Position numbers and translations under genes: made by a program | Assembly: GCA_903926385.1 (NCBI GenBank) | Contig: CAIYIS010000057.1 | Location: 1 to 64,000, forward strand | Reading direction: 5' to 3' | DNA: 64,000 bases | Source of the DNA: an uncultured Bacteroidota bacterium | GTDB lineage: Bacteria; Bacteroidota; Bacteroidia; 2-12-FULL-35-15 | The notes under the pieces: model-generated | What the model saw: only the letters and a program-made list of their open reading frames with translations | Database searches by the model: none | What the model was told of the DNA's origin: nothing | In this document: piece after piece, positions 10,147-61,061 of the stretch | How the letters are laid out: every line of letters begins with the position of its first letter | Numbering within the stretch: the first letter of the stretch is position 1

Positions 10147-10902
10147 ATGGCTTCCACATCAGAAACAGGTCACACTATCAATGTAGCTCACTTCGAAACA
10201 CTAATCTCCCGTTGTGCAGGCTTCGGCACTGACTACAACCCTTCTAAAACAGAAATCAAACTACCAGCTCTCGGCACTTTGCTTACTTCAAGTCAAACAG
10301 CCCTTACTAATCTAACCACTGCCGAAACAGCCTATATCAATGCCGTCAATCCTCGTTACATCATATTTCATCCCCTTAAACCTCTGTCCACTCGTATCAT
10401 CAACGCTCTTGCTGCCACAGATGCCACTCCCGAGTTAATAAAAGACGCTAAAACCCTTAACCGTAAAATTCAAGGCAAACGTGCAAGTCAAAAAACTCCT
10501 CCCGTTCAACCTCCTGCCATTCCCTTGCCTCCCGGCACCATTCCTCCTTCCACTACTCAAATTTCCGTTTCTCAGCAAAGCTATGATTCTTTGCTCAAAA
10601 ACTTTAACAAACTAGTCGACCTCGTTTCTTCCGAAGCAACTTACACTCCTAACGAAACCGAACTAAAAGTACTTGCGCTTACCAACCTTGCCACCGATTT
10701 AGCCATCAAAAACACAGCAGTTATCAATGCTACAACAGATTTGCTCAACGCTCGGGCGGTTCGTACCAAAACGCTTTACCTAGACAAAACTGGCCTTTTC
10801 GATATAGCCGCTCAGGTCAAAAAGTATGTAAAATCAGCATCTACAGCTTCTAACCCTATGTTTAATCAAGTTAAAGGCATCAAGTTCACCAAATCAAGAT
10901 AA
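10147..10902 (+). CDS. uncharacterised internally duplicated helical protein with proline-rich linker
   Basis: 251 aa ORF with a terminator; N-half GFGTDYNPSKTEIKLPALGTLLTSSQTALTNLTTAETAYINAVNPR resembles C-half ATYTPNETELKVLALTNLATDLAIKNTAVINATTDLLNARAVR; linker PPVQPPAIPLPPGTIPPS. Confidence 0.85.
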   Translation: MASTSETGHTINVAHFETLISRCAGFGTDYNPSKTEIKLPALGTLLTSSQTALTNLTTAETAYINAVNPRYIIFHPLKPLSTRIINALAATDATPELIKDAKTLNRKIQGKRASQKTPPVQPPAIPLPPGTIPPSTTQISVSQQSYDSLLKNFNKLVDLVSSEATYTPNETELKVLALTNLATDLAIKNTAVINATTDLLNARAVRTKTLYLDKTGLFDIAAQVKKYVKSASTASNPMFNQVKGIKFTKSR

Positions 10903-10916
10903 ATTTAAGCCAATTA

Positions 10917-10948
10917 ATCCCTCTTTGCACCATCCGCAAAGGGGGATT
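10917..10948 (+). terminator. rho-independent terminator of the 10147-10902 gene
   Basis: AATCCCTCTTTGC/GCAAAGGGGGATT stem followed by TTTTTTT. Confidence 0.85.
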
Positions 10949-11029
10949 TTTTTATTCCATCCACCTTAACTCGTTGTCAATCTCTGTTTTATTATATCCG
11001 TCATCCCTTTTTAAGCACACTCTAACAAT

Positions 11030-11260
11030 TTAGAAATATAGCAGAGGGCGTTAGAAATATAGCAGAGGGCGTTAGAAATATCCTAAAGGGTTTTAGAAAT
11101 ATCCCAAAGGGCGTTAGAAATATCGTAGAGGGCGTTAGAAATATCCTAAAGGGTTTTAGAAATATCCCAAAGGGCGTTAGAAATATCATAGAGGGCGTTA
11201 GAAATATCGCAAAGGGTGTTAGGAATATCGCAGAGGGCGTTAGAAATATCCCGCAGTGTG
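11030..11260. repeat. tandem array A, 11 x 21 bp
   Basis: Eleven consecutive 21-nt units starting TTAGAAATAT (unit 10 TTAGGAATAT) with a variable second half, e.g. AGCAGAGGGCG, CCTAAAGGGTT, CCCAAAGGGCG. Confidence 0.97.
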
Positions 11261-39286: not shown

Positions 39287-39538
39287 GGTAGTTCCTCTTT
39301 CCGATGCGATAGCCTCTCTTTCCGATGCGATAGCTCCTCTTTCCGATGCGATAGCTCCTCTTTCCGATGCGATAGCCTCTCTTTCCGATGCGACAGCCTC
39401 TCTTTCCGATGCGATAGCCTCTCTTTCCTATGCGATAGCTCCTCTTTCCTATGCGATAGCCTCTCTTTCCTATGCGATAGCCCCTCTTTCCTATGCGATA
39501 GCCCCTCTATCCAATGCGATAGCCCTCCTATCCGATAG
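39287..39538. repeat. tandem array B, 12 x 21 bp
   Basis: Units GATAGC(C/T)(T/C)CTCTTTCC(G/T)ATGC; the CCGATG/CCTATG core recurs at 39301, 39322, 39343 ... 39532, each step 21 nt. Confidence 0.97.
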
Positions 39539-39829: not shown

Positions 39830-39840
39830 GAAGAAAAGAG

Positions 39841-39966
39841 AAGTACTTCCTTTAACAGATGAAGTACTTCCTTTAACAAGAGAAGTGCTTCCTTTAACAG
39901 ATGAAGTACTTCCTTTAACAGATGAAGTACTTCCTTTAACAAGAGAAGTACTCGGTTTACTAACGG
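39841..39966. repeat. tandem array C, 6 x 21 bp (last unit degenerate)
   Basis: Units AAGTACTTCCTTTAACAGATG or ...AACAAGAG starting at 39841, 39862, 39883, 39904, 39925, 39946. Confidence 0.97.
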
Positions 39967-48951: not shown

Positions 48952-48973
48952 GATAAGTCGAGTCCGACTTATC
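48952..48973. repeat. inverted repeat at left edge of array D
   Basis: GATAAGTCG-AGTC-CGACTTATC, perfect 9-bp arms. Confidence 0.8.
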
Positions 48974-49085
48974 ACAACTCGAGTCCGACCTTTCGCAACT
49001 CGAGTCCGACCTTTCGCAACTTGTGTCCGACTTATCACAACTTGAGTCCGACTTGTCGTAAGTCGAGTCCGACTTATTGAAACTC
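48960..49085. repeat. tandem array D, 6 x 21 bp
   Basis: Units GAGTCCGAC(TTATCACA/CTTTCGCA)ACT(C/T) at 48960, 48981, 49002, 49023, 49044, 49065. Confidence 0.97.
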
Positions 49086-60935: not shown

Positions 60936-61061
60936 CGAACATCTTTCCCCGCTCTCGGGATACCGTTCAGAAACATGCGAACACCTTCCCCAGTAGTCGG
61001 GATACTGTTCGCAACCTTACGAACGTTTCCCCCAGTACTCGGGAAGGTGTTCGTAAGTAAA
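60936..61061. repeat. 42-bp array F, 3 units with CGAAC/GTTCG symmetry
   Basis: CGAAC starts at 60936, 60978 and 61020; each unit has a TTCCCC..(A/T)(C/G)TCGGGA core and most have internal GTTCG. Confidence 0.8.

Follow-up and report, generated by a model that had tools for sequence, protein, structure and literature searches.

Does the gene for a 251-aa orphan protein belong together with the tandem array of 21-bp units that follows it, or do the two merely lie side by side? We addressed this question in a 64-kb window (the whole stretch of DNA analysed), which belongs to a contig of 79 kb from a Bacteroidota assembly of 4.27 Mb. The features are listed in Table 1. The gene ends in a terminator-like hairpin of its own, and array A starts ~75-80 nt past this hairpin, as the sequence-only reading had described (~80 nt). 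The register of array A is exact across units; GTTAGAAATAT and AGGG are common to them, and most differences fall within the central 4-5 nt. The array was also scored as period 63 in the repeat search. Only one single-mismatch match to the unit was found elsewhere in the genome. The earlier description of array A as the longest clean 21-bp array was incorrect: the array at 39294-39536 is longer (243 vs 222 bp) and cleaner (91% vs 85% period-21 match).

Table 1. Features of the locus and other 21-bp arrays and array-associated orphan genes (window coordinates unless a locus is named; helices are those predicted by AlphaFold2, AF2)
Feature	Position	Strand	Evidence
ORF, 251 aa; basic (pI 9.7), internally duplicated, predicted all-helical orphan of the MASTSETGH family	10147..10902	+	ORF list, homologues, hhalign, AF2, pI
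N-terminal four-helix unit, ~residues 1-112	10147..10482	+	AF2 helices 9-25, 39-74, 77-89, 95-109
Pro-rich linker, low confidence, ~residues 113-135	10483..10551	+	pLDDT ~57-69
C-terminal four-helix unit with basic tail, ~residues 136-251, homologous to N-terminal unit	10552..10899	+	AF2 helices 146-161, 175-211, 217-231, 237-243; hhalign
Intrinsic-terminator-like hairpin (13 pairs), then T run	10916..10948	+	hairpin search
Array A, 10.5 head-to-tail 21-bp units, consensus near GTTAGAAATATCNNANAGGGC	11029..11250	.	repeat search; private to locus
Orphan arrays, period 21/42, no family gene beside	39294-39536, 39840-39952, 48958-49085, 60954-61044	.	repeat search
Other orphan proteins beside 21-bp arrays, helical, C-terminal part apparently Fn3-like; three of them represent P0001, P0002 and P0004	L094:2801-3490, L110:3021-3644, L100:13524-14237, L111:16714-17469 (-)

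The two similar halves noted on first inspection were confirmed by hhalign, which aligned the N-half and the C-half of the family with 98.8% probability (E 1.4e-16). The duplication is therefore real across the family. AlphaFold2, run with 50 homologues, predicted two helical bundles joined by the low-confidence Pro-rich linker (mean pLDDT 90.8). No significant match to the protein was found in Pfam, NCBIfam, PDB, PHROG or PADLOC, and fold searches of the predicted model against PDB and viral models yielded no significant match. Among PDB shapes, the best plausible one was the helical ligand domain of chemoreceptor McpS (TM 0.44, E 0.43, not significant), and no DNA-binding fold was recognised in the PDB fold comparison. 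The family is basic, with a median pI of 9.57 vs 7.81 for own-genome ORFs (p 1e-20); R70, R206 and K225 are near-invariant (basic in 98-100% of members), and the tail is basic too. The fraction of C-ending codons in the gene is 0.56 vs 0.32 in its neighbours. This excess, also noticed earlier, recurred over 36 homologous loci (mean +0.17, Wilcoxon 5.5e-10). Because their C-ending codons exceed those of the neighbours, the family genes are probably highly expressed, an inference from codon use alone. Clustering of neighbours across genomes revealed no recurrent gene neighbour or mobile cassette at family loci, searches for a phage or plasmid origin of the family gave no matches, and PADLOC reported no defence system at the locus.

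Of the 395 genomes of the class, 37 were found by a profile search to contain the family; they represent 20 of 196 genera and frequently have multiple copies. Homologues occur beyond that class as well. Stretches of 5-20 kb were taken around 40 homologues, and shorter loci for the remaining ones. Tandem Repeats Finder reported a 21-multiple array within 500 bp of 43 of the 56 homologues outside the genome of the window. Arrays near a family gene numbered 44 (36 downstream and 8 upstream) vs 2.2 expected, and 13 lay in the other 569 kb (conditional binomial 3e-26). Because this program overlooks worn arrays, we also performed a threshold-free scan that records, for each flank, the lag (8 to 60) of its best self-match. 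Lags of 21, 22, 42 or 44 won in 47 of 57 downstream flanks. For control ORFs, which a simple ORF finder had called within the same loci, they won in 20 of 254 flanks (Fisher 8e-30). An additional identity threshold of 0.6 was passed by 45 of the 57 and 2 of the 254. When a signal on either flank was accepted, such a repeat signal lay within 500 bp at 56 of 57 loci. Since ~8% of flanks per side pass by chance, a few of the 56 positives may be chance. At the one locus without such a signal (G233:C85), arrays lie farther out, at +726 and +865, and several seemingly empty loci proved to contain worn arrays that were still in register. Most of the genomes are draft assemblies, and arrays by contig ends are possibly incomplete.

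The array usually lies ~30-330 bp 3' of the family gene. In the family tree, its position is mostly downstream in the main clade; in the divergent SSFGAK-type clade the array, where present, is upstream. One subclade (L081, L082 and L084, from G216 and G157) has clean 22-bp arrays downstream. Two pairs of multi-kb loci (L040/L041 and L023/L024) are identical or 97% identical, in genomes labelled as different families (G063/G260, 100%; G033/G067, 97%). They may reflect contamination or transfer, and one member of each pair was excluded from the lag-scan count.

Homologues found later, mostly from another class of the phylum, had not been used in forming the linkage idea. Nine of the 11 full-length ones had arrays of the 21- or 7/42-bp type within ~610 bp: eight with period 21/42 (L223, L238, L239, L240, L241, L244, L245 and L246), some of them 430-606 bp off, and L247 with 7-bp-period arrays at ~+300. 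Both homologue loci of genome G623 (L222 and L228) had 8-bp rather than 21-bp arrays, namely 12 copies of AATAATCC upstream at one locus and ~7 copies of TTGGAGTG downstream at the other. The AATAATCC array is confined to its own locus within that genome. No array was seen at two shortened homologue fragments (L242 and L243). Judging from the later set, what stays constant is the presence of a private tandem array, whose period is usually but not always 21 bp.

Additional 7-bp-period arrays were observed near four divergent homologues (L239, L244, L246 and L247, from G702 and G717), three of which have 21- or 42-bp arrays as well.

The sequence-only reading had inferred a link between gene and array from this one locus and had proposed a comparison of arrays within 500 bp of homologues with those around random genes. 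The counts above bear the link out, and it also holds in the independent set. Homologues without nearby arrays had been named in advance as refuting it, and it stands at 56 of 57 loci. The other refuting outcome, an array conserved independently of the gene, was not seen; the array is private to its locus and diverges with the gene.

Unit sequence changes fast. Likeness of units between loci was above chance only when the proteins were >50% identical, and where it existed it was higher on the same strand than in reversed orientation; no unit was common to homologous loci below 50% protein identity. In paralogues C13 and C38 of G014 the DNA is 93.5% identical, and the units are clearly different. 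This pair is awkward for sequence-specific recognition. Within arrays, adjacent units match by 79% on average, and 30 of 45 linked arrays are free of indels. Unit variation had no codon periodicity (p 0.42). Since one subclade moreover has 22-bp units, the arrays were shown to be non-coding, as judged from their sequence variation. A coded heptad peptide is refuted by the same lack of periodicity and by the 22-bp and 8-bp arrays at homologues. Palindromes in the family consensus units were not above chance, and the units gave no sign of 10.5-bp-phased curvature or wrapping DNA (composition without a 10.5-bp sub-period, second harmonic not enriched).

Several explanations of the linkage were weighed. 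In the strongest competitor, the array serves a highly expressed gene as a cis-regulatory or insulating element that is read by a general host factor (nucleoid protein, gyrase or regulator) and not by the neighbouring protein, with repeat copy number tuning expression or relieving supercoiling, as in gyrase-binding REP/BIME clusters. We consider this unlikely, although it has support beyond the codon use that suggests high expression. The genome of the window contains 69 period-21 arrays in 1.14 Mb (~6 per 100 kb), most of them beside ordinary genes. Starting from these arrays, we identified three companion orphan families (P0001, P0002 and P0004; P0002 and P0004 are mutually related, 97.6%). 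Their homologues in this and other genomes had a 21/42-bp signal upstream in 50 of 54 cases and downstream in 4 of 53, so that several unrelated orphan families are alike in having arrays, mostly 30-260 bp upstream, in promoter territory. At two loci of a companion family with 99% identical flanks, the arrays differ by 63 bp (three units), a whole-unit copy change that would suit tuning by copy number. Because unrelated protein families have the same 21-bp period, a common host factor could read the arrays. The linkage is qualified accordingly: 21-bp arrays also occur away from the family gene, and other orphan families have arrays of their own.

Against a regulatory element stands the position of the double-bundle family array, 3' of the gene and past the terminator. 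Orphan arrays in the same genome did not favour divergent (promoter) gaps, and there was no bendability signal at 10.5 bp of the kind that suits DNA-wrapping proteins. Furthermore, five genus-mates lacking the family had no 21-multiple arrays in 275 kb, suggesting that close relatives do without such elements; this array-free control comprises only 275 kb from one genus.

A protein-RNA cassette, in which transcription of the array yields a small non-coding RNA that offers the basic protein repeated 21-nt binding sites, appears quite doubtful. The family pI and basic tail would suit it, and an array past the terminator could be a separate transcript. The family arrays are direct repeats with no excess secondary structure (z ~+0.2), slightly less structured than column-shuffled versions, as single-strand sites might be; RNA hairpins were thereby rejected for this family. 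Arrays of the Fn3-like families do form hairpins (hairpin or dyad rich, z ~-0.9 to -1.6). The RNA account is weakened by the lack of an Rfam match and of conserved sequence, by the absence of a consistent strand composition bias in the family arrays, and by the absence of transcription data. Excess secondary structure was also found in 57 tested orphan arrays (L092-L165; mean z ~-1.5, t ~-7.7), often in the form of a hairpin or dyad in each 21-bp unit, different from array to array. Two orphan arrays adjoin an ORF at L092:1571-1801 (HDNPVEAGFV motif), which we take to resemble a REP-associated tyrosine transposase.

The least probable account makes the arrays a by-product of slippage-type amplification at hotspots close to very active genes or of a repeat-generating activity, with no role for the protein; it fits the abundance of arrays in the genome of the window and the turnover of unit sequence, but not arrays that are near-universal at homologues in two classes, on a preferred side and with a fixed period, that are lacking at control genes in the same loci, and that stay in register even when worn.

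Established observations are the linkage, a fixed period (21, rarely 22 or 8 bp), fast change of unit sequence, whole-unit copy change in a companion family, an array that does not code for protein, and a basic, duplicated protein. We tentatively interpret the locus as a two-part unit of a basic double four-helix-bundle protein and its own direct-repeat array, which would serve as its binding sites; this is inferred without binding data, and it falls somewhat short of an even chance. In most lineages, the array DNA would offer a single site of contact for every two helical turns. Copies of the neighbouring protein might load side by side, in the manner of iteron-bound initiators or of centromere proteins bound to their repeats, with contacts made through the two duplicated bundles, the basic helices and the tail. 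The cell would thereby gain a locus-specific nucleoprotein platform, for which register would be selected while unit sequence drifts along with its own protein. Such a platform may act in local chromosome organisation, autoregulation or maintenance of the unit; one of the first two is our guess. Two helical turns are not universal, because both G623 loci have 8-bp arrays. A specific relation of protein and array is favoured over a general host factor because the symmetry and side of the array match the protein family. The regulatory and RNA explanations nevertheless keep room, because unrelated families have the same period and because of the 8-bp exception.

A broader reading, to which we give an even chance, is that small orphan proteins of various families form, together with their private arrays, an undescribed class of two-part chromosomal units that is widespread in Bacteroidota. 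The period of each array, mostly 21 bp, would be conserved and its sequence unconstrained, and protein and array would act jointly as a locus-specific nucleoprotein assembly. In this class, array position and symmetry would track the family, being 3' and asymmetric for double-bundle proteins and 5' and hairpin-forming for Fn3-like ones. The C-terminal parts of P0002 and P0004 look Fn3-like, as read from sequence with no tested match; a single-sequence fold of P0004 had a pLDDT of 38, and homology between the bundles and the helical part of the Fn3-like families was only suggestive (p 0.013). Constant repeat length together with repeat sequence that changes across lineages points to an undescribed partnership of protein and DNA array, for which there are no binding or functional data. 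A one-locus hunch has thus become a strong regularity among genomes. Within two Bacteroidota classes, proteins without known function are almost invariably paired with a locus-private array of which the length of the unit, not its sequence, is conserved. These uncharacterised families gain a concrete, testable substrate, and the question becomes what recognises repeats through their period.

No prior description of such a protein and array unit was found in the open-access literature; description elsewhere is not excluded. The locus fits no described system that we found, and it lacks most of the tested features that define iteron replicons, partition systems, CRISPR/TIGR, REP/RAYT and BrickBuilt-type MITEs. 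Plasmid centromeres of the parC/ParR and tubC/TubR type also consist of a direct-repeat array beside a gene for a small DNA-binding protein; in contrast, the present loci have no motor ATPase or GTPase partner, and no neighbour recurs across genomes. REP/BIME clusters with RAYT transposases likewise consist of repeated elements between genes and lie close to highly expressed ones, whereas here there is no recurrent transposase neighbour, the units are contiguous 21-mers and the family arrays are not palindromic. CRISPR, TIGR and other guide arrays, whose constant repeats are separated by unrelated spacers and accompanied by an effector nuclease, differ in that the units here are ~79% alike throughout, with no spacer class and no PADLOC match.

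Intergenic tandem arrays are known in Bacteroidota from the BrickBuilt minisatellite/MITE of Porphyromonas gingivalis, with spacerless 23-nt tandem units at many loci (PMC4596501). In the available part of that report, one common unit lies in a transposable element with inverted-repeat ends and no linked protein family is described; here, by contrast, each array has its own unit sequence, so the same unit does not recur at many loci. TAACTGA heptamer direct repeats in Beggiatoaceae, Cyanobacteria and some Bacteroidetes also form many intergenic arrays, some near start codons, and 7 divides 21 (PMC4679880). As far as the accessible text of that study goes, they differ from the present arrays in using one fixed heptamer across loci and phyla, with no linked protein family. 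BldC, a 68-residue MerR-like protein that forms head-to-tail oligomers on direct repeats, provides a model for cooperative loading of protein copies on such repeats (PMC5859096). No sequence relation of the 251-aa protein to BldC was detected.

Plasmid iteron systems, such as that of the R6K pi protein, have tandem 22-bp iterons beside the protein gene. The loci described here differ from them in being chromosomal, in having several copies per genome and in a repeat sequence that is unconserved between relatives; the Rep initiator is likewise missing, with no match to a Rep fold, in Pfam, NCBIfam, PHROG or PDB, or to plasmids. Iterons have been reviewed (PMC4980987). The feature in common is an array of ~20-22-bp direct repeats beside a gene, head to tail, at about two helical turns per repeat and with a copy number of the order of 7-15, and by analogy the array may still function like an iteron array.
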